Shown: positions 9,532 to 49,775 of the stretch, piece by piece
Layout of the letters: every line of letters starts with the position of its first letter
How positions within the stretch are numbered: position 1 is the stretch's first letter
DNA from: Jiangella ureilytica
GTDB taxonomy: Bacteria > Actinomycetota > Actinomycetes > Jiangellales > Jiangellaceae
Direction of reading: 5' to 3'
NCBI RefSeq assembly: GCF_004348545.1
Contig: NZ_SMKL01000005.1
Coordinates: forward strand, 1-64,000
Length of the DNA stretch: 64,000 nucleotides
Made by a program: the position numbers and the translations under genes
Notes under the pieces: model-generated
Database searches by the model: none
Told to the model about the DNA's origin: nothing
What the model saw: only the letters and a program-made list of their open reading frames with translations

Positions 9532-10114
9532 CGGCCGACGGTGTCAGCTCGCGGTAGGGCAGCCCGCGCAGCAGGAGCGCCAGCCGGGCGGCCGACTCCA
9601 GCTCCTCGGCGAGATCGGCGGCCAGGTCCACGTCGGCCGCCGCGACGACGCTGCCGTGGTTGGCCATCAGCACCGCGTGGTGGCGCGCCATGGCGGCGGC
9701 GACACCCTCGGCGAGGGCCGCGCTGCCGGGCCGGGCGTACGGCGCCACCGGCAGCGGGCCGAGGCGTGTCACCTGGTACGGGGTGAGCGTCGGCACCGGC
9801 TCGTCGAGGCAGGAGACGGCGACGGCGTGCACGGAGTGCAGGTGGACGATCGCGCGTGCCTCGTGCCGCACGTGGTACGCGGCGAGATGCAGCGGGAACT
9901 CCTTCGACGGCCGCGTACCGGACAGCGGCTCGCCGCTCAGCGAGAGCACCGCCAGGTCGTCGGACGTGACCCGGCTGAGCGCGCCGCCGGTGGGGGTGAC
10001 GAAGACCTGCTCGCCCACCCGGACGCTGACGTTGCCGGACCCGCCGGGCGACAGGCCCAGTTCCGCCAGCCGGCGGCACGCGGCGACCAGCGACTCCATC
10101 GCGGCCGTGCTCAC
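9500..10114 (-). CDS. otnC: Class II aldolase-family decarboxylase, OtnC-like
   Basis: 204 aa of the AraD/FucA class II aldolase fold. Zn-binding HLHS (the HxH pair, about residue 92) and a later histidine (ANHGS, about residue 155) are present; the SGN loop and TPTGG phosphate-binding segment are conserved. The partner kinase OtnK lies directly upstream, and OtnK/OtnC pairs phosphorylate and decarboxylate 3-oxo-tetronates to dihydroxyacetone phosphate (known of the family). The GTG at 10114 overlaps the otnK stop by 4 bp and follows GGAGGTGGGG. The exact substrate here is inferred. Confidence 0.85.
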   Translation of the reverse strand: MSTAAMESLVAACRRLAELGLSPGGSGNVSVRVGEQVFVTPTGGALSRVTSDDLAVLSLSGEPLSGTRPSKEFPLHLAAYHVRHEARAIVHLHSVHAVAVSCLDEPVPTLTPYQVTRLGPLPVAPYARPGSAALAEGVAAAMARHHAVLMANHGSVVAAADVDLAADLAEELESAARLALLLRGLPYRELTPSAVSELTGPATT

Positions 10115-11511
10115 GGCCCCACCTCCCACGCCGTCGTGAACAGGTCGGCCGGCCCGAAGTTGCCCGACTTCAGCAGCAGCGCCAGCGGGTCCGGCCCGGC
10201 GCTGACGGTCCAGGGCACGCCGGGCGCGACCTGAGCCCCGACGCGCACCTGCCGGACGCCGAGGGCGCCGGTCACCGCGCCGGACGTCTCGCCACCGGCG
10301 ATGATCAGCCGGCGCACCCCGGCCCCGACGACGGCCCGGGCGACGGCGCTCAGCGCCTCCTCGGCGAGCGTGGCGGCCCGCTCGCGGCCGTGCCGCCGCT
10401 GGACGACGCGCAACTCCTCCGGCGGCAGCGCCGTGGTGGCCAGCACCGGCCCGGTAGGGGACGCGGCGAGTGCGGCGAGAACGGCGTCGCCGGCGGCAGC
10501 CGTGGTCCCGCCGGGGTCGGCCGCGAGGTCGTCGACGCCGATCCGCACGACCGGCCCGGGGAACGCCGCGATCTGCTCCAGCGTCCGCCGCGAGCAGCTG
10601 CCCGCCAGCACCACCCGCCCGCCACCGGGCCGCACGTCAGGCAGCTCGTCGGGTGGCACGTCAGGCAGCTCGTCGGACGGCACGTCAGGCAGCTCGTCGG
10701 ATGGCCGGGGCGATGCGGCGGCGAGTGTCGGTGCCCGCCCGTAGGGTGGGGACCCTCCCTCACCGGGCGGGTTATGCTCCGGCCCGGTGCGCGAGTCCGC
10801 GGCAGCGCCGGCACGGGCCGACTCGACGCCGACCCAGTAGCGGGCGAGGGCGGCGGCCAGGCCGGACGCCCCGCCGAGCAGCTCGTCCCCGCCGGCCAGA
10901 GCGGCCGCGTGGCGGTCGAGATCCTCGTCGGTCAGGGCATCGAGCAGCACGTGCGCGGCCGGCTCGTCCGGGGTCACCCCGGCCGACGGCCAGGGCGCCA
11001 GCCCGACCGAGCGCTCGGTCTGCGCCCCGAGCACGCGGACGAGGTCGGCGTCGGTCATCGGCGTCAGGGGATGGTCGCGCAGCGGCGACTCCGACAGCAG
11101 CCGTCCGTCGACGAACAGGTGACCCTGGTAGACGGTGCGCCCGACCGCGGGCGTGGCCGGCGTCCCCACCGAGCGGCCGCCCACCAGCTCGGCCAGCGCG
11201 TCGGCGACCGGCCCGATGTTCCCGGCCGGCGTGGAGTCGAAGGTCGAGCAGTACTTCTGGTAGAGCCGCCGGGCGCCGTGGTGAAGCAGCCACCGTCCGG
11301 CCGCCACCGACTCCGCGACGGCGGATGTCACCGGCGCCGTCCGGGTCTTGAGGGCGACGACGACGCATGCGGCGCCGGCGGCCGGGACATCCACAGGCGA
11401 GGGCGGGCCGAGCAGCACCGTCGCCGGCATCCCGGCCGCCGTGACGACACCGGCCAGGTCGCAGGCGCCGGTGACGTCGTCGGCCACCACGCCGAGCGCG
11501 AGCGCACTCAC
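10111..11511 (-). CDS. otnK: Four-carbon acid sugar kinase (DUF1537), OtnK-like, with a repeat-rich insertion
   Basis: 466 aa. The N-terminal domain starts ADDVTGACDLAG, the signature of DUF1537 sugar-acid kinases; the C-terminal nucleotide-binding domain has GGETSGAV and LKSGNFG. Family members are usually about 420 aa. The excess is an insertion of about 45-50 residues (around 247-293) between domains, made of three ELPDVP-type repeats and an in-frame 51-bp palindromic element. GTG at 11511 overlaps the deoR stop by 4 bp. Operon deoR-otnK-otnC. Catalytic motifs look intact, so the insertion is probably a tolerated surface loop. Confidence 0.87.
   Translation of the reverse strand: MSALALGVVADDVTGACDLAGVVTAAGMPATVLLGPPSPVDVPAAGAACVVVALKTRTAPVTSAVAESVAAGRWLLHHGARRLYQKYCSTFDSTPAGNIGPVADALAELVGGRSVGTPATPAVGRTVYQGHLFVDGRLLSESPLRDHPLTPMTDADLVRVLGAQTERSVGLAPWPSAGVTPDEPAAHVLLDALTDEDLDRHAAALAGGDELLGGASGLAAALARYWVGVESARAGAAADSRTGPEHNPPGEGGSPPYGRAPTLAAASPRPSDELPDVPSDELPDVPPDELPDVRPGGGRVVLAGSCSRRTLEQIAAFPGPVVRIGVDDLAADPGGTTAAAGDAVLAALAASPTGPVLATTALPPEELRVVQRRHGRERAATLAEEALSAVARAVVGAGVRRLIIAGGETSGAVTGALGVRQVRVGAQVAPGVPWTVSAGPDPLALLLKSGNFGPADLFTTAWEVGP
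10632..10703. repeat. Three 24-bp direct repeats inside otnK
   Basis: Units at 10632-10655, 10656-10679 and 10680-10703 share GCACGTCAGGCAGCTCGTCG and differ only in their last bases. They encode repeated SDELPDVP-like octapeptides and end 17 bp from the 51-bp palindromic element. Confidence 0.95.
10721..10771 (+). repeat. 51-bp palindromic dispersed element, copy A (inside otnK)
   Basis: Identical over 51 bp to the reverse complement of 28268-28318. It carries outer inverted arms CCCGCCCG/CGGGCGGG and an inner AGGGT/ACCCT pair that can fold into a strong hairpin. Its length of 17 codons keeps the otnK frame open. A further short match (GCGATGCG) lies just beyond the left end after a 3-bp indel, so the element may be nearer 60 bp. 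Confidence 0.93.
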
Positions 11512-15602: not shown

Positions 15603-16565
15603 TTGGCCTCCACGCAGGTCAACGCGCCCGGGACGCTCGGTGATGACCGAGCGGCCCGGGCGCGCCGCATCAGCCGACGGCGGGAGACGAGATCGGCACT
15701 GCTGTTCATCAGCCCGTGGATCATCGGGTTCCTGGTCTTCACGGCGTGGCCGATCATCTACAGCGCGTACCTGTCGCTGACCGACTACGACGTGATCAAC
15801 AACCCGAACTACGTCGGGCTCGAGAACTACGAGGAGCTGTTCCGCGACCCCGACGTCGCGCTGGCGCTGTGGAACACGTTCTTCTTCACGATCATCCAGG
15901 TGCCGGTCTACGTCATCGTGTCGCTGGCGCTGGCGCTGCTGCTCGACAAGGCGGGGCGGGCGTCCGGGTTCTTCCGGACGGCCTTCTTCCTGCCGAAGAT
16001 GACGCCGCCCGTGGCCGTGGGCATCCTGCTCCTGCTGCTGTTCAACGGGCAGAGCGGCCTGATCAACGAGGCGCTGAGCTGGTTCGGCATCGACGGCCCG
16101 GCGTGGACGACCGACCCCGACTGGGTGAAGCCCGGCCTCATCATCATGAGCCTGTGGTCCGTGGGGTCGTCGGTGATCATCCTGCTGGCCGCGCTGCGCA
16201 ACGTGCCGCAGGAGCTCTACGACTCCGCGCGGGTCGACGGCGCGAACTGGTGGCAGCAGACCCGGAAGATCACCGTCCCGATGATCAGCGGTGCGCTGTT
16301 CTTCATCTTCATCGTCAACACCATCGCCGGGTTCCAGACGTTCACGGAGGCCTACACGGCGTTCTTCGGGTCCGGCAACACGACCTACAGCAACGACGCG
16401 GCGCTGTTCTACGTCATCTACCTGTTCCGCCAGGCGTTCGAGTTCCTCAACATGGGCTACGCCTCGGCGATGGCCTGGCTGCTGTTCGTGATCATCATGA
16501 TCTTCACCGCGATCCAGATCAAGGTCAGCCGGCGGTTCGTCTACTACGAGGGTGAGCAGCGATGA
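15603..16565 (+). CDS. ABC sugar transporter permease, MalF/UgpA type (operon 1)
   Basis: 320 aa with six predicted membrane helices after a basic N-terminal tail. The EAA-type loop ELYDSARVDGANWWQQTRKITVPMI contacts the ATPase. TTG at 15603 is the only well-placed start, with GGAAGAAGG 9 nt upstream. It overlaps the next permease by 4 bp. No ATP-binding gene is present; in actinomycetes such importers usually share an MsiK-type ATPase encoded elsewhere (inference here). Confidence 0.92.
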   Translation: MASTQVNAPGTLGDDRAARARRISRRRETRSALLFISPWIIGFLVFTAWPIIYSAYLSLTDYDVINNPNYVGLENYEELFRDPDVALALWNTFFFTIIQVPVYVIVSLALALLLDKAGRASGFFRTAFFLPKMTPPVAVGILLLLLFNGQSGLINEALSWFGIDGPAWTTDPDWVKPGLIIMSLWSVGSSVIILLAALRNVPQELYDSARVDGANWWQQTRKITVPMISGALFFIFIVNTIAGFQTFTEAYTAFFGSGNTTYSNDAALFYVIYLFRQAFEFLNMGYASAMAWLLFVIIMIFTAIQIKVSRRFVYYEGEQR

Positions 16566-17470
16566 CGACGCAGACGCGGCTCGACTCCGAGGCGGCCGCG
16601 CCGGAGCCGCCGACTCCGCGGACGCCGGTGCGGCGCCGACGCAGGATCACGCCGGCCAAGGTGCTGATCTGGACCGGGCTGATCCTGGCGACGCTGATCT
16701 TCATCTACCCGTTCATCTGGCTGATCAGCGCCTCGTTCAAGCCCCGCGGGGAGGTCTTCGACAACAAGATCATCCCGGAGACGTTCACGTTCGACAACTA
16801 CCTGAACGTCTGGCAGGAAGCGCCGATGGCGCTGTGGCTGTGGAACACGGTCCTGGTCACCGTGCTCGCGGCCGTGACCGTGACGGTCAGCAGCGCGATG
16901 GTGGCGTGGGGCTTCGCGTACTTCCGGTTCCGCGGCCGCAACCTGCTGTTCGGCGTGGTGCTGGCGACGATGATGCTGCCGGGCGCGGTGACGATGATCC
17001 CGCAGTTCCTCATCTGGAACAGCCTGGGGATGGTCGACACCCTCACGCCGCTGTGGGCGCAGAACCTGTTCGGCAGCGCGTTCTACATCTTCCTGCTCAG
17101 GCAGTTCTTCCTCGGGCTGCCCCGTGAGCTGTTCGACGCGGCGAAGATCGACGGCGCGAACAACTGGAAGATCTTCACCCGCATCGCCATGCCGCTGTGC
17201 AAGCCGGCGCTGATCATCACGCTGCTCTTCGAGTTCCAGGCGATCTGGACCGACCTCATGCGGCCGCTGATCTACCTGCGCGACAGCGACAACTTCACCG
17301 TCCCTCGAGGTCTGAAGGCGCTGCTGGACCAGTACGGCTTCGGCGGCGAGTGGCACTGGGAGATCGTGGTCACGGCGAGCGTCATCACGACGGTCCCGAT
17401 GATCATCCTGTTCTTCCTCGGCCAGCGGCACTTCGTCCAGGGCATCGCGACGACCGGCAGCAAGGGGTGA
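16562..17470 (+). CDS. ABC sugar transporter permease, MalG/UgpE type (operon 1)
   Basis: 302 aa, six membrane helices, EAA loop ELFDAAKIDGANNWKIFTRIAMPL. ATG at 16562 overlaps the upstream permease stop (ATGA), and its own stop overlaps the GTG of the GH2 gene (GTGA). Highly similar to the permease at 37987 (shared FAYFRF, TMMLPGAVTMIP-like and RQFFL stretches), showing that the two transporter cassettes are duplicates. Confidence 0.92.
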   Translation: MTTQTRLDSEAAAPEPPTPRTPVRRRRRITPAKVLIWTGLILATLIFIYPFIWLISASFKPRGEVFDNKIIPETFTFDNYLNVWQEAPMALWLWNTVLVTVLAAVTVTVSSAMVAWGFAYFRFRGRNLLFGVVLATMMLPGAVTMIPQFLIWNSLGMVDTLTPLWAQNLFGSAFYIFLLRQFFLGLPRELFDAAKIDGANNWKIFTRIAMPLCKPALIITLLFEFQAIWTDLMRPLIYLRDSDNFTVPRGLKALLDQYGFGGEWHWEIVVTASVITTVPMIILFFLGQRHFVQGIATTGSKG

Positions 17471-27957: not shown

Positions 27958-29865
27958 TCAGCGAGCCAGCACCGCCCGGACGAACGGCGGAACCACGGTC
28001 CTGAGCACGTTCTGCTGCTCGTGGGACTCGGCGACGGCGAGGGCGCCGGCCGCCGCCGTCCGTTCGGCGTCGCCCGCCGACGGCGCCAGCGCGGCCAGGG
28101 CGGCGAGCCCAGCCCGGCCGGTGTCGGCGAGCGCGACCAGCCACGGCATGACCTCGCGCTCGATCCGGTCGGCCGGCTCCCGCTGGACCCGGTCGGCCGG
28201 TTCCCGCTCGATCTGGTCGGCGGGGTCCGGCTCGATCCGGTCGCCCGGCTCTCGATCGTCGGTGGACCCCGCCCGGTGAGGGAGGGTCCCCACCCTACGG
28301 GCGGGCACCGACACTCGCGCATCGCGACCGTCGTCGGGCTCGCGACCGCCGACCGGCTCGCGATCGCCGACCGGCTCGCGACCGCCGTCGGGCTCGCGAC
28401 CTTCGACCGGCTCGCGACCGGCGCCGGGCTCGCGACCTTCGACCGGCTCGCGACCGGCGCCGGGCGCGGCCGCGACCATCGCCGTGAAGCGGTCCCGGAG
28501 TTGCTCGGCCGCCGCGGCCGATCCGTCCAGCGTCGCGTCGCACAGCGCGGACAGCTCAGGATCCTGGGGGGCCGACGGCGGCCACGACGCGCACGCGCGG
28601 GCCAGCGTCCGGACCGCCTCGGTCGCTCCGACGGCGTCCAGCGCGCGGGCGTGCGCGGAGTCCGGGTCGTAGGCCGCGAGGTTCCACGCCCAGTCCGCCA
28701 CCGTCGCGACCGCGATCTGCGACGCGGCCTCGTGCGGCATCGGGTTCGCCGTGATCCCGGCGAGGCGCGCCCCGTCCAGTGCGGCCGGCCGGCCGAGCAG
28801 CGGGCCGAGGAACAGGCGGGGGAAGTCGAAGTCGTTGACCGGGAAGTTGTCCCAGAGCAGCAGCTCGTGCCCGTAGGACTCCGCCGCCGCGTCGATCTCC
28901 GCCCGGGTGATGTCGCCGACCACCACGTCGCGGCCGGTCCACCACACCAGCACCTCGGGCGGCAGCTCGGCGGCCAGCAGGTCGCGGTGCGGGGTCGGCG
29001 CCGTCCCCGCGTAGTCGGTCGGCACCATGATCAGCGGCCGGTCCAGGGCGAGCCGCTCGATCACCTGGCGGCAGATCGCCGCGTGCGCGCGGGCCGACGA
29101 CCCCGGCGCGGAGCCGAACGCGACCCGGTCCGCGTCGTGCGAGAGGTCCGGCGCGATGTCGTCGAACAGGAGCGCGACGTCGCGCACACCCACCTGCCGG
29201 ACCTGCTCGAGCTTCGCGATCAGCAGGTCCACCTCGGCCGGGTCGCTGTAGACCATCGAGAGGCCGGGTGAGACGGAGAACACGAACCGCACGTGCGACC
29301 GCCGCGCCGCCGCTGCCAGCTCCCCGATCCGCGCGAGCTCGGCCGCCGGGTACGGGTCGCGCCACTGTGCACGGTGGAACGGGTCGTCCTTCGGCGCGTA
29401 CACGTACGTGTTGAGCTTGTGCCGCCCGGCGAACTCCAGGTGCGCCAGCCGGTCCGCGTGCGACCACGGCGGGCCGTAGAAGCCCTCGATGGTGCCGCGC
29501 CAGCGCAGGTCGGGCCGGTCCTCGATGGTGACGGGCGGCAACACCCCACCCGTCGATGCCGCCAGCGCCCGCAGCGTCTGCGCGCCGTAGAACGCGCCGG
29601 CCGGGTCCGACCCGGTGATCGTCACCGTCGCGCCGTCGACGGTGAGGCGGTATCCCTCGGCGGATCCGCCCGGCTCGATCCCGACGACGACGGCGACCCG
29701 CTCGCCTTCGGCGACGGTCGGCAGCGCGGCCACGACCGCGGCGGCGTTCTCGCAGGTCGGGGGCGCCTCGACGGTGACGGAACCGACGCTGACGCCGTCG
29801 TCGCCGGTGAGTTCGAGGTGGTGCGGACGCGGGCACAGCTTGTCTGTGACAAGAGGCGTCGACAT
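27958..29865 (-). CDS. GH84-type beta-N-acetylglucosaminidase with a repeat-rich C-terminal insertion
   Basis: 635 aa. The N-terminal alpha/beta domain (1-125) precedes a TIM barrel starting RWRGTIEGFYGPPWSH, the NAGidase (PF07555) signature. The tandem catalytic aspartates are D235-D236 in LLFDDIAPDL, consistent with substrate-assisted catalysis. There is no signal peptide. Residues about 472-569 are a low-complexity GREPxx/REPADRxx stretch with a 51-bp palindromic element in frame, in the helical C-terminal part. ATG at 29865 lies 2 nt from a LacI operator that contains its -10, so the mRNA is probably leaderless. Confidence 0.87.
   Translation of the reverse strand: MSTPLVTDKLCPRPHHLELTGDDGVSVGSVTVEAPPTCENAAAVVAALPTVAEGERVAVVVGIEPGGSAEGYRLTVDGATVTITGSDPAGAFYGAQTLRALAASTGGVLPPVTIEDRPDLRWRGTIEGFYGPPWSHADRLAHLEFAGRHKLNTYVYAPKDDPFHRAQWRDPYPAAELARIGELAAAARRSHVRFVFSVSPGLSMVYSDPAEVDLLIAKLEQVRQVGVRDVALLFDDIAPDLSHDADRVAFGSAPGSSARAHAAICRQVIERLALDRPLIMVPTDYAGTAPTPHRDLLAAELPPEVLVWWTGRDVVVGDITRAEIDAAAESYGHELLLWDNFPVNDFDFPRLFLGPLLGRPAALDGARLAGITANPMPHEAASQIAVATVADWAWNLAAYDPDSAHARALDAVGATEAVRTLARACASWPPSAPQDPELSALCDATLDGSAAAAEQLRDRFTAMVAAAPGAGREPVEGREPGAGREPVEGREPDGGREPVGDREPVGGREPDDGRDARVSVPARRVGTLPHRAGSTDDREPGDRIEPDPADQIEREPADRVQREPADRIEREVMPWLVALADTGRAGLAALAALAPSAGDAERTAAAGALAVAESHEQQNVLRTVVPPFVRAVLAR
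28159..28254. repeat. Four 24-bp direct repeats in the GH84 gene
   Basis: Units start at 28159, 28183, 28207 and 28231, with core CTCGATCCGGTCGGCCGG, encoding DRIEREPA-like octapeptides on the minus strand. Confidence 0.92.
28268..28318 (-). repeat. 51-bp palindromic dispersed element, copy B (inside the GH84 gene)
   Basis: Exact reverse complement of 10721-10771. Outer arms CCCGCCCG (28268-28275) and CGGGCGGG (28298-28305), inner AGGGT (28283-28287) and ACCCT (28292-28296), loop CCCC. It lies between the 24-bp and 18-bp tandem repeat tracts, keeps the frame open, and is read on the opposite strand from copy A relative to its host gene. Confidence 0.93.
28327..28452. repeat. Seven 18-bp direct repeats in the GH84 gene
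   Basis: Contiguous units from 28327 with consensus ACCGNCGNCNGGCTCGCG, encoding GREPxx hexapeptides; an eighth, degenerate unit runs to 28470. Confidence 0.93.
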
Positions 29866-37032: not shown

Positions 37033-37990
37033 CGTCTCCACGGTGCCGGTGGCGCCCCCGATGTCGCGGGGGCGCCGCTGGCGCGCGGCCTGGCGGCGGC
37101 CCGAGACCCGGTGGGCGTACCTGTTCCTGCTGCCGTGGATCCTCGGCTTCCTGGTGTTCACCGCCGGGCCGATGATCGCCAGCCTGGTGCTGTCGTTCAC
37201 CGACTACGACGTCATCAACGCGGCGACCTATGTCGGCGGCGAGAACTATCAGCGCATGGTCGAGGACCCGCAGGTGCGGACGGCGCTGTTCAACACCCTG
37301 CTCTACACGGTGATCCATGTGCCGCTGTCCATCGCCATCGCGCTGGCGCTGGCGGTGCTGCTCAACCAGATCGGCGGCCGGTTCGCCGGGTTCTTCCGGA
37401 CCGTGTTCTACCTGCCGGCCATGACGCCGACCGTCGCCGTGGGCGTGCTGTTCCTGCTGCTCCTGAACGGGCAGAACGGCCTGGTCAACGCCGCTCTCGG
37501 GGTGTTCGGCATCGATGGGCCGGCGTGGACGACGGATCCGGCGTGGGTGCGCTGGGGCATCATCATCATGAGCCTCTGGACCATCGGCGGCACCATCGTC
37601 ATCCTGTTCGCCGCGCTGAAGAACGTGCCGGCCGACCTCTACGAGGCCGCCCGCATCGATGGCGCCGGCGCGTGGCGGCAGTTCCGCGAGGTCACCGTCC
37701 CGATGATCTCAGGCTCGCTGTTCTTCGTGATCATCGTGAACACCATCGCCTCGCTGCAGATGTTCACCGAGGTCTACACGATGTTCTACGGCAACGCCCA
37801 GAGCCAGCTGCAGGCGTCGGACAGCGCGCTGTTCTACGTCATCTACCTGTTCCGGCAGGGCTTCCAGTTCCTCGAGATGGGCTACGCCTCGGCGCTGGCC
37901 TGGGGGCTGTTCGTCATCGTGCTCGTCGTCACTTTGGTGCAGGTCAAGCTCGGTGACCGGTTCGTCTACTACGAGGGAGACGACCGATGA
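37022..37990 (+). CDS. ABC sugar transporter permease, MalF/UgpA type (operon 2)
   Basis: 322 aa, six membrane helices. The EAA loop DLYEAARIDGAGAWRQFREVTVPMI is clear. Nearly superimposable on the permease at 15603 (LPWILGFLVFTAGPMI versus SPWIIGFLVFTAWPII; FGIDGPAWTTDP in both). The ATG at 37022 lies inside the binding-protein gene, and the 3' end overlaps the second permease by 4 bp. Confidence 0.92.
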   Translation: MSADVSTVPVAPPMSRGRRWRAAWRRPETRWAYLFLLPWILGFLVFTAGPMIASLVLSFTDYDVINAATYVGGENYQRMVEDPQVRTALFNTLLYTVIHVPLSIAIALALAVLLNQIGGRFAGFFRTVFYLPAMTPTVAVGVLFLLLLNGQNGLVNAALGVFGIDGPAWTTDPAWVRWGIIIMSLWTIGGTIVILFAALKNVPADLYEAARIDGAGAWRQFREVTVPMISGSLFFVIIVNTIASLQMFTEVYTMFYGNAQSQLQASDSALFYVIYLFRQGFQFLEMGYASALAWGLFVIVLVVTLVQVKLGDRFVYYEGDDR

Positions 37991-38895
37991 CCATGGTCCA
38001 GATCGAGCCGGCGCACGAGCAGCCGGCCGGCGACCGCCGCCGCCCTCCGGCGGGTGCCTCCCCGGCCCGCCGGGTGATCCGGACGGGGTTCGTCGTCACC
38101 GCCGTCGCGTTGGTGGCGGCGACGTTCACCTACCCGCTCCTGTGGCTGGTGAGCGCCTCGCTGAAGCCGCGGTACCAGGTGTTCGACAACGTTCTGGTGC
38201 CGCGTGAGGTGCGGCCGGAGAACTACACGAGCCTGCTCGACGCGGTCCCCTTCCTGACCTGGTTCGGCAACAGCATGATCGTCGGCGTCATGGCCGCGGT
38301 GACGGTGACGCTGAGCAGCGCGCTCGTCGCGTTCGGCTTCGCCTACTTCCGCTTCCCCGGCCGGAACCTGCTGTTCCTGCTGGTGCTCGGCACGATGATG
38401 CTGCCGGCCGCGGTGACGATGATCCCGACGTTCCTCATCTGGCAGGAGTTCGGGCTGTCGCAGACCCAGGTGCCGCTCTGGGCGCACAACGTGTTCGCCT
38501 CGGCGTTCTACGTGTTCCTCCTGCGGCAGTTCTTCCTCAGCCTGCCGCGCGACACGTTCGAGGCGGCGCGGGTGGACGGCTGCGGCTACGTCGGGCTGTT
38601 CTGGCGCATCGCGATGCCGCTGTGCCGGCCGGCCCTGATCGTCGTGTTCATCTTCGAGTTCCGGGCCAGCTGGACCGACCTGATCCGGCCGCTGATCTAC
38701 CTGCAGGACGAAGCCCTCTACACGCTGCCGCGGGGACTGAAAGCCGTGCTGGACGCGTTCGGTCAGGGCGGCGAGCAGCAGTGGGAGATCGTCATGGCGG
38801 CCTCCGTACTGGCGACGGTCCCGCTGATCGTCCTGTTCTTCTGCGCCCAGCGGTACTTCGTCGAAGGGATCGCCACGCAGGGGCGCAAGGGGTGA
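37987..38895 (+). CDS. ABC sugar transporter permease, MalG/UgpE type (operon 2)
   Basis: 302 aa, the same length as its paralogue at 16562, with six helices and the EAA loop DTFEAARVDGCGYVGLFWRIAMPL. ATG at 37987 overlaps the previous stop. As in operon 1, no ATPase gene follows. A 76-bp gap before the ROK gene holds the small palindrome GTCCC-AAAC-GGGAC (38941-38954). Confidence 0.92.
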   Translation: MTMVQIEPAHEQPAGDRRRPPAGASPARRVIRTGFVVTAVALVAATFTYPLLWLVSASLKPRYQVFDNVLVPREVRPENYTSLLDAVPFLTWFGNSMIVGVMAAVTVTLSSALVAFGFAYFRFPGRNLLFLLVLGTMMLPAAVTMIPTFLIWQEFGLSQTQVPLWAHNVFASAFYVFLLRQFFLSLPRDTFEAARVDGCGYVGLFWRIAMPLCRPALIVVFIFEFRASWTDLIRPLIYLQDEALYTLPRGLKAVLDAFGQGGEQQWEIVMAASVLATVPLIVLFFCAQRYFVEGIATQGRKG

Positions 38896-48230: not shown

Positions 48231-49481
48231 CTACTCGCTGCAGTCCAGGCCGGGGAAGACGGTCTCGTCGCTCGCGGGTGCGGTGGTCTGGCGCTCCTGG
48301 GCGCGGCACGCACGCAGCCGCAGGGTGTGCACCAGTCGCTCCGCCTCGTCGAGGTCGCCGGCGGCGATGGTCGCGCCCACCTCGTCGCGGTAGACGTCCG
48401 GCAGCGCCTCCAGCGGCAGGTCGCCGGGGACCTCGTACAGCTCGGACAGGTGGACCGGGCCCAGCTCGTGCCGGACGCCCTGGTAGATCGCCACCTGGCC
48501 GTTACTGGTGCCGATGTAGTACTGGTCGCGGACCCAGTGGTTGGCGTAGGACAGTCCGGCCCAGCCGACCGCGAGCACGGCGGCCACGGTGATGACCGGG
48601 CGCAGCCCGCGCCGTCGCCGCCGGTGCCGGGTTCGCGGTGCGTAGCGCATGACCTCGGGGTCGTTCTCGAACTCGGCCGGCTCGCCGTCGCTGGGGTCGG
48701 CGTCCTCGGCGGCCGACCCGACGGTGATCGTCTCGCGGGCGTCCACGACGGTGTCGGCGGCGTCGACCTCGGCGATCTCGCCGATGACGACGGTGACGTT
48801 GTCGGGCGCGCCGGCGTCCAGGGTCATCGCGATGAGGCGGTCGGCGGCATCCTCGACGGTGCGCGCGCGGGCGAGCGTCTCTTCGATCTCGCGGTCCGTC
48901 ACGACGTCTGAGAGCCCGTCGCTGCAGATCAGGACGCGGTCGCCGGGCTGGACGTCGATGATCGAGTAGTCCGGGTGGATCGGCGACTGGCCCTGGAGCA
49001 CCTTCGTCACCACGGAGCGGGCCGGGTGCTCGCGGGCGTCCTCGGGCGTGATGCGGCCGTCGTCGACCAGCGACTGGACGAACGTGTGGTCGCGGGTGAT
49101 CTGCGTCAGGCCGCCGTCGCGCAGCAGGTACGCGCGCGAGTCACCGATGTGGCCGAGCGCCAGCTGCACGCCGTTCCACAGCAGCGACGTGCTCGTCGTG
49201 CCCATGCCGGCGCGCGTGGGGTCGGCGCGGGCGAGCTGGTCGATGCGGCTGTTGGCGGCGCTGACCGCGGCCGACAGCACTTCGATGGGGTCGCCGTCGG
49301 GCGGCTGGTCGGCCTTGACGAGCATGTCGATGGCCGCGCGGCTGGCGACCTCGCCGGCTGCGTGCCCGCCCATGCCGTCGGCGACCGCCAGGAGGTAGGG
49401 CCCGGCGTAGCCGGAGTCCTCGTTGCCCTCTCGGACCAGGCCGACGTCAGAGCGCGCGACGTAGCGCAGCGTCAGCGGCAT
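48231..49481 (-). CDS. PP2C-family Ser/Thr protein phosphatase, paralogue of PstP
   Basis: 416 aa. The PP2C catalytic domain (1-240) has the same motifs as the gene at 1-1351, followed by a membrane helix (about 303-320, VITVAAVLAVGWAGL) and an extracytoplasmic tail ending LDCSE. It shares architecture with PstP but lacks the Thr/Pro tail and is not next to FHA or kinase genes. The first 52 codons are nearly identical in DNA to the pstP copy, the rest clearly diverged. ATG at 49481. It probably adds a second phosphatase to the same kinase network. Confidence 0.93.
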   Translation of the reverse strand: MPLTLRYVARSDVGLVREGNEDSGYAGPYLLAVADGMGGHAAGEVASRAAIDMLVKADQPPDGDPIEVLSAAVSAANSRIDQLARADPTRAGMGTTSTSLLWNGVQLALGHIGDSRAYLLRDGGLTQITRDHTFVQSLVDDGRITPEDAREHPARSVVTKVLQGQSPIHPDYSIIDVQPGDRVLICSDGLSDVVTDREIEETLARARTVEDAADRLIAMTLDAGAPDNVTVVIGEIAEVDAADTVVDARETITVGSAAEDADPSDGEPAEFENDPEVMRYAPRTRHRRRRRGLRPVITVAAVLAVGWAGLSYANHWVRDQYYIGTSNGQVAIYQGVRHELGPVHLSELYEVPGDLPLEALPDVYRDEVGATIAAGDLDEAERLVHTLRLRACRAQERQTTAPASDETVFPGLDCSE

Positions 49482-49483
49482 CG
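49326..49483 (-). repeat. 158-bp near-identical patch shared with pstP (copy B)
   Basis: Partner of 1196-1353: 156 of 158 bases identical, same orientation and same codon phase. Confidence 0.9.
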
Positions 49484-49775
49484 ATTCCCTACTCCCGCAC
49501 CCATCGAGGCGTGACGGGCCGCCCGCCCGCCACGTCGCCTCCCCCCAGAGACATGTCGATCACAGCGGATCGTAACCGCCAACCGTGGGTCGCGGCGGAG
49601 TCGCCACGCGGACCGGCGTTGTCCACAGGTCTCGCGGATTCGCGGAGTCGTCCACATTTCCGGGTTCGGCGGATGCGGGCGGGTGGGTGGTCGACGAACG
49701 ATGAAGGGGTCCGGCCGAGCAGCCGGTCCGGGGCCCCCGGGGGCCTCGTCCCCGTGACGTGAGAGGACTCCATCC

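Follow-up and report, generated by a model that had tools for sequence, protein, structure and literature searches.

A dispersed, insertable palindrome of Jiangella genomes with an embedded PafBC-type damage promoter sequence

Introduction

In a 64-kb stretch of the Jiangella ureilytica genome (64,000 nt; here, the window), two unrelated genes carry the same 51 bp in opposite orientation. What is this sequence, how did it come to lie inside two reading frames, and what might it do there? The first-pass annotation read it as a REP/MITE-like mobile palindrome tolerated as a protein linker and pointed to RAYT-type machinery as the possible mobilizer. The excerpts available from PMC3733652 describe REP- and RPE-type palindromes mostly from Proteobacteria; according to the same excerpts, GTAG REPs are accompanied by RAYT, and CGTC REPs, which include some RPE, enter genes and have no dedicated transposase. 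Here, we follow the sequence through the window, the genome, and the genus.

Results

The 51-bp pair and its host genes

Repeat comparison within the window identified positions 10721-10771 as the exact reverse complement of 28268-28318, the sole perfect inverted pair among the repeats listed. The first-pass description of this pair was accurate on its exactness (51 nt, 100% complementary), on its nested inverted arms, which sequence and fold resolve as CCCGCCCG/CGGGCGGG enclosing GGGTGGG/CCCTCCC, and on the lack of a stop in either host, as the otnK and GH84 open reading frames both stay open. Of the core's forward frames, one out of three contains TAG, and the host genes use other frames. 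The central 22-mer, with up to 3 mismatches, matched twice in the window and not once in any of 100 shuffles. Both copies lie within genes, neither of them just upstream of a gene start. The features of the two loci are as follows.

10111..11511, minus strand: otnK (3-oxo-tetronate kinase), host of copy 1 (NCBIfam NF043035, 388 bits against a cut-off of 350)
10626..10705, minus strand: 24-bp tandem repeats (ELPDVP units) in the otnK linker, adjoining copy 1 (repeat search, linker comparison)
10720..10784, plus strand: element copy 1, inside otnK and antisense to it, with the exact 51-mer; extent (-6 to +58 around the core) approximate, from the information profile
10726..10747, plus strand: PafBC/P1-type promoter consensus of copy 1, TGTCGGTG-CCCGCCCG-TAGGGT (consensus as excerpted from PMC5656591 and PMC8151990)
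10734..10741, plus strand: 5′ arm of the outer stem of copy 1, CCCGCCCG (sequence, fold)
10764..10771, plus strand: 3′ arm of the outer stem of copy 1, CGGGCGGG (sequence, fold)
27958..29865, minus strand: GH84 beta-N-acetylglucosaminidase-type gene, host of copy 2 (PF07555 at residues 123-421; gene call)
28255..28319, minus strand: element copy 2, inside the GH84 gene in sense orientation, with the exact 51-mer at 28268-28318; extent approximate, from the information profile
28292..28313, minus strand: PafBC/P1-type promoter consensus of copy 2 (motif search)
28304..28501, minus strand: 18-bp tandem repeats (GREPxx units) in the GH84 linker, adjoining copy 2 (repeat search, linker comparison)

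According to Pfam, the OtnK copy falls between the SBD_N sugar-binding domain (residues 5-221) and the NBD_C nucleotide-binding domain (residues 299-457), and the GH84 copy is C-terminal of the catalytic NAGidase domain (residues 123-421). The adjoining tandem repeats resemble units of the native linker in multiplied form, ELPDVP in the one case and GREPxx in the other.

Two other pairs of related stretches in the window are recorded for their own sake. Positions 1175-1358 and 49305-49488 are 95% identical over 184 nt within paralogous stretches whose neighboring parts are 71-77% alike, a pattern of sequence that suggests recent gene conversion. Positions 15911-17470 and 37333-38895 are paralogous over about 1.6 kb (73-81% identical, same order) and read, by eye, like ABC-transporter permease genes.

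Dispersal in the genus

When the whole genome was searched for a 69-nt stretch, 31 matches had E <1e-4, and the pattern TGTCRGTRCCCGCCCGTAGGGTGGG, at up to 3 mismatches, retrieved 39 copies in the same genome (G000) versus 0 for the reversed-pattern control. The exact 51-mer occurs only twice, which taken alone would count against the dispersed element of the first-pass annotation, yet the family of 39 copies upholds it; the nearest further copy is 98% identical to the 51-mer. Across our set of 12 Jiangella genomes (G000 to G011), the counts were 39, 115, 4, 17, 0, 6, 65, 0, 24, 68, 34, and 185, with 0 for the reversed control, so that G004 and G007 hold no copies with 3 mismatches or fewer. 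As the genomes are related, their copies do not count as independent observations. An exact-core scan of a collection of 84,980 species, with a single genome per species, yielded 85 stretches, and all 80 among the matches listed were from Jiangella, the only genus in which the element family has so far been found. A looser pattern, TGTCRGTG-N8-TAGGGT, gave more than 6 matches only in Jiangella among 296 genomes of the class. Outside the genus, 1 to 6 matches were found in 103 of 284 genomes, versus 11 of 284 for the reversed control (table read by eye), and the matches listed there have different spacers, one of which (CCCGCCAG in G280) is near that of the element. Viral contigs, phages, and plasmids yielded no match, and an origin from a phage or plasmid was rejected on this ground.

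Anatomy and pairing of the element

In a profile of 121 copies, information content spans about -6 to ∼13 nt beyond the second arm, which sets the length of the element at ∼60-65 bp. The 5′ half (25 nt) is almost constant across the family; the 3′ half is of several types in G001. The family stems are CCCGCCCG/CGGGCGGG and GGGTGGG/CCC[A/T]CCC, with TA between them on the 5′ side. The tetranucleotide GTAG is internal, between the two stems, and not at the end of the palindrome, and the conserved ends in the profile lack CGTC. No excess of an outer inverted stem over shuffled pairs was found in the flanks.

The hairpin of the window copy, taken alone, is only mildly above shuffles (z, -1.6; 14 of 200 shuffles equally good). 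Across 126 copies chosen by the core pattern, whatever their second arm, pairing of the 3′ half to the constant 5′ half was better than that of dinucleotide-shuffled 3′ halves (mean z, -2.0), with z below 0 in 107 copies and below -1 in 90. A first pairing run, on the 121 copies that also served for the profile and the flanks, gave the same mean z; this set consists of the copies with a GGG[C/A]GGG arm and omits the 5 of 126 that lack it. Because copies had otherwise been picked by the core pattern, we ran an additional profile search over the window and three syntenic regions of 400 kb each near otnK and GH84 (1.26 Mb in all), with a profile itself built from pattern-chosen copies. It recovered 24 copies with E <1e-5 and none between 2.1e-6 and 0.1, a gap that indicates few decayed relics, and pairing in these 24 was similarly measured at a mean z of -1.9. 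Given the selection by core pattern and the source of the profile, the near-invariance of the core may only reflect recent spread. Promoter bases and other core bases showed no clear difference in changes among the 24 profile-found copies, which are too alike. Five loci gave no Rfam match at the gathering score, and a structured RNA family was rejected accordingly.

A PafBC/P1-type promoter sequence in the 5′ arm

The LexA-independent P1 promoter has the published consensus tTGTCRgtg-8 nt-TannnT in the excerpted text of PMC5656591, and the corresponding portion of PMC8151990 gives the Mycobacterium tuberculosis PafBC motif as TGTCGG-N10-TA-N3-T. The 5′ arm of the element, TGTCRGTG-CCCGCCCG-TAGGGT, fits both consensuses exactly in both window copies. 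We think that this fit of the 5′ half to a DNA damage promoter consensus, as judged from the sequence, is the main feature of the locus, and one that the first-pass annotation missed. TGTC-N12-TANNNT is kept in 22 of the 24 profile-found copies and in 120 of the 121 pattern-chosen ones; on the opposite strand, it is present in 0/24 and 0/121, respectively. The palindrome is therefore asymmetric at the promoter bases. From base composition, the chance of the full motif in a stretch of this size is ∼5e-6, a figure that is post hoc because the motif was recognized after the sequence had been seen.

Searches of the J. ureilytica genome with TGTCRGTG-N8-TANNNT returned 43 matches versus 1 for the reversed control, which the spacer divides into 23 that belong to the element and 20 others. 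Fourteen of these 20 were examined (one, on contig C150, had no gene called), and in 8 a called gene start lies 6-8 nt downstream; the genes concerned include recA (RecA confirmed) and a DUF222 gene. As a side observation, loci L148, L160, L167, L144, and L162, recA among them, have a PafBC-type motif located 6-8 nt upstream of the called start codon, which suggests leaderless damage-induced mRNAs in Jiangella.

The genome encodes a PafB-PafC pair as two adjacent WYL genes on contig C74, one of them with an HTH_PafC domain, followed by genes that read, by eye, like tatA and tatC. In the accessible part of PMC11804915, PafBC is activated by single-stranded DNA. Separately, C91:99385-109026 (L391 and L392) holds two more adjacent pairs of WYL-domain genes in a PafB/PafC-like layout, and this contig has two copies of the element ∼10 kb away.

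Placement of copies relative to genes

Genes from our own codon-usage caller allowed 99 copies to be classed (31 of 39 in G000 and 68 of 115 in G001). Twenty-four lie inside genes, 9 in sense and 15 in antisense orientation, and 8 of the 9 sense copies use the frame reading SVPARRVG. The 75 intergenic copies comprise 34 between convergent genes, 8 between divergent genes, 14 and 18 between co-directional genes (two orientations), and 1 with a single neighbor. In none of the 99 classed copies does a called start follow the motif at 6-8 nt, as it does in 8 of the 14 examined motifs whose spacers differ; a single degenerate copy that does not belong to the classed set (C113:82589) is followed by a called start at 25 nt. 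In their positions, the copies are unlike functioning gene promoters, and their interpretation as a regulon was rejected because these positions argue against it. It was also noted that some sites are common to species, namely, behind a cytidine-deaminase-like gene in G000, G001, and G006 and behind disA in G001, G002, and G011.

Filled and empty sites

Comparison of otnK and GH84 orthologues revealed the empty sites that the first-pass annotation had proposed to look for, in that several relatives are uninterrupted. The otnK linker has 20-31 residues and no element in G004, G005, G007, and G010, versus 73-147 residues with the element, antisense in 5/5, in G000, G001, G003, G009, and G011. 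For GH84, a short linker is found in G005, G007, G008, G009, and G010, and a linker that holds the element, each time in the sense frame, in G000, G001, G003 (two copies), and G011, with G004 left unscored; the copies in G001 and G011 have changed core bases. A tree built from the conserved parts of both proteins places G009 together with G001 and G011 (support, 0.996); two deeper nodes are weak (0.39 and 0.48). The GH84 pattern would be explained by three gains or about five losses, or possibly by exchange between species.

An insertion difference was found in G009, where a putative mobA gene, so named from a motif, has a 66-nt (22-codon) in-frame insertion at its start that is absent in G011 and G001, with flanks 91-96% identical. 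The stem of this copy has diverged and its promoter bases are kept. At another site, G011 has about 90 nt with the element; G009 is empty there, and G001 has a longer unrelated stretch. In otnK and GH84, the element lies in frame within otherwise conserved genes and outside Pfam domains, and the 66-nt insertion is likewise in frame. Dispersal, presence/absence differences between species, and these linker sites support the earlier suggestion of a mobile-type palindrome tolerated as a protein linker.

Tandem repeats and close pairs

Of 145 copies, 91 have a tandem repeat no more than 100 bp away, versus 19% of 2,900 random positions. Since intergenic spaces with a copy exceed those without in length (median, 395 versus 141 bp), the count was redone by space length with lone copies only. 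Tandem repeats accompanied 30 of 43 copies in spaces of at least 300 bp (500 of 2,751 control positions) and 13 of 33 in shorter ones (258 of 1,796 control positions). Pairs closer than 500 bp have the same orientation in 17/17 cases among the 156 copies listed (100 of the 115 of G001, the 39 of G000, and the 17 of G003); outside this list, a weak partial match at the very end of contig C114 makes up one opposed arrangement. Behind a disA-like gene (named by eye) of G011 (L082, 946-1525), five copies follow one another at an exact 133-bp spacing, and G001 and G002 have one each. This array is a candidate variable-number tandem repeat.

Candidate routes of spread

The Y1 transposase family PF01797, which covers RAYT and IS200/IS605 and to which the transposase search was directed, was found in 0/12 genus genomes, J. 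ureilytica included, and in 5/14 controls. The genomes with 115 and 185 copies are among those without it. Mobilization of the REP/RAYT kind, the route raised at first pass, was rejected for lack of Y1 genes; in addition, close pairs share one orientation and no duplicated target was found beside the copies. Specifically, the flanks of 121 copies contain no fixed target-site duplication, and they show a slight excess of direct similarity in 40-nt flanks (6.21 versus 5.88 ± 0.11) and also in 25-nt flanks, with none in 15-nt flanks; a classic MITE with target duplication was rejected on this basis. Among 379 neighbor proteins from 117 loci (some overlapping), no recurrent gene family marks a parent element, and no autonomous partner was seen beside the copies. 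DUF222/HNH nucleases, presumably of the 13E12 type, were considered as the mobilizer because DUF222 genes share the promoter motif. There are 4 to 29 DUF222 matches per genus genome, and they fall as copies rise (Spearman rho, -0.62; P = 0.03; n = 12), so this candidate was rejected, with copy number running the opposite way.

Discussion

The best explanation that we can offer for the observed dispersal, presence/absence differences, pairing, exact one-strand promoter match, PafBC genes, and tandem association is a dispersed, insertable palindrome of ∼60-65 bp with an embedded PafBC-type damage promoter sequence, and we give this explanation as a whole a probability of about 70%. The 51-mer would then be the center of the palindrome. 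Its 5′ arm would constitute a complete PafBC-dependent (P1, RecA-independent) promoter sequence, and its 3′ arm would be a variable, mirror-like partner in which base pairing is kept and the promoter bases are not. The element would behave as an RPE/REP-like insertable sequence without a Y1 transposase, placed mostly in intergenic regions, often at gene ends, and sometimes as an in-frame linker between domains, and it would probably multiply locally by direct tandem duplication along with its flank. Thus, the earlier interpretation survives in part, i.e., as a dispersed palindrome that can be inserted in frame, and fails as to REP/RAYT.

The family was compared with several known systems. With the RPE and CGTC REPs of PMC3733652, as far as its excerpts describe them, it shares a short palindrome that lies between and inside genes, in frame; a dedicated transposase is not known for the CGTC type, and none of the Y1 family was found here. 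This is a likeness of behavior. It differs from them in a host of another phylum, in one arm that is a complete damage promoter sequence, and in direct tandem duplication. Like REPs and REPINs, to the extent of the sections available from PMC3733652 and PMC3116915, it is a small, GC-rich, imperfect, mostly extragenic palindrome whose copy number within a genus is high for some species and low or zero for the rest; unlike them, it is found in genomes with Y1/RAYT in 0/12, has GTAG internally, and forms inverted pairs in 0/17 close pairs. The consensus and the spacing are identical to those of the actinobacterial PafBC P1 (RecA-independent) promoters, in the parts of PMC5656591, PMC8151990, and PMC11804915 that deal with them, and in the J. 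ureilytica genome the motif also precedes recA and further genes. In contrast to those promoters, the motif of the element is the arm of a repeated palindrome and has no gene start at 6-8 nt in the classed copies. The family resembles bacterial MITEs, as outlined in the opening text of PMC10969869, in being noncoding, short, dispersed, and polymorphic between species; it differs in that neither target duplication nor a parent element was found in Jiangella (neighbors and PF01797 searched). The titles and abstract openings listed from the open-licence literature contained no account of such an element in Jiangella or of a repeat built on a PafBC promoter.

Other readings explain part of these data. 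MITEs often retain only the ends of their parent element, and that habit would suit a REP- or MITE-like element whose mobilizer is a non-Y1 transposase acting in trans and whose promoter match is a passive inheritance, derived from the 5′ end of an autonomous element that is lost or unrecognized. Such mobilization is in keeping with a copy number that varies in a single genus from 0 to 185 and with the clean ends of one insertion difference. We nevertheless regard it as unlikely, as the flanks offer slight direct similarity in place of a target duplication, the 379 neighbor proteins from 117 loci contain no parent-marking family, Y1 transposases are missing from 12/12 genomes, and viral contigs, phages, and plasmids lack a match. 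Selection could instead have domesticated the site, in which case the copies would be a dispersed PafBC regulon or decoys that tune the damage response. The restriction of the consensus to one strand, the presence of PafBC genes, and the sites common to species (at the cytidine-deaminase-like gene and disA) agree with this; the scarcity of classed copies between divergent genes, their abundance between convergent ones, the 24/99 inside genes, and the existence of two genomes (G004 and G007) without copies at up to 3 mismatches do not, and make it quite improbable.

That the palindrome is a structural or terminator-like device at gene ends, with a PafBC motif fit due to chance, seems to us very improbable. 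Convergent placement is indeed the commonest (34/75 intergenic copies) and hairpin potential exceeds that of shuffles, but chance would have to supply a motif expected at ∼5e-6 per element (post hoc) and 43 matches against 1 for the reversed control in the J. ureilytica genome; moreover, 24/99 classed copies are in genes, 15 of them antisense, and the copies displayed have no T run after the arm.

For the insertable palindrome with its embedded promoter sequence, a course of events can be sketched. During DNA damage or replication, the palindrome may form a hairpin in single-stranded DNA, and this hairpin may stall the copying machinery or make it slip; we propose that such stalling or slippage is the reason for the tandem repeats beside the element. 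Repair might then copy the element into new places, helped by PafBC activity or coinciding with it. RNA polymerase and PafBC could bind the 5′ arm, a predicted promoter, such that copies may fire damage-induced transcripts into or out of the host locus. A new kind of mobile palindrome tied to the damage response, in which damage transcribes the element and opens its hairpin and repair or slippage copies it elsewhere, is a tentative extension that we consider doubtful. If it were true, damage promoters would be scattered through the genome, inside genes too.

Jiangella has a family without Y1, with 0 to 185 copies per genome and a defined sequence of the inducible promoter type on one arm, and this range together with the defined arm makes both mobility and an effect on the damage response directly testable. 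On the sequence evidence, the family also provides an actinomycete example of palindromes that act as linkers within proteins.
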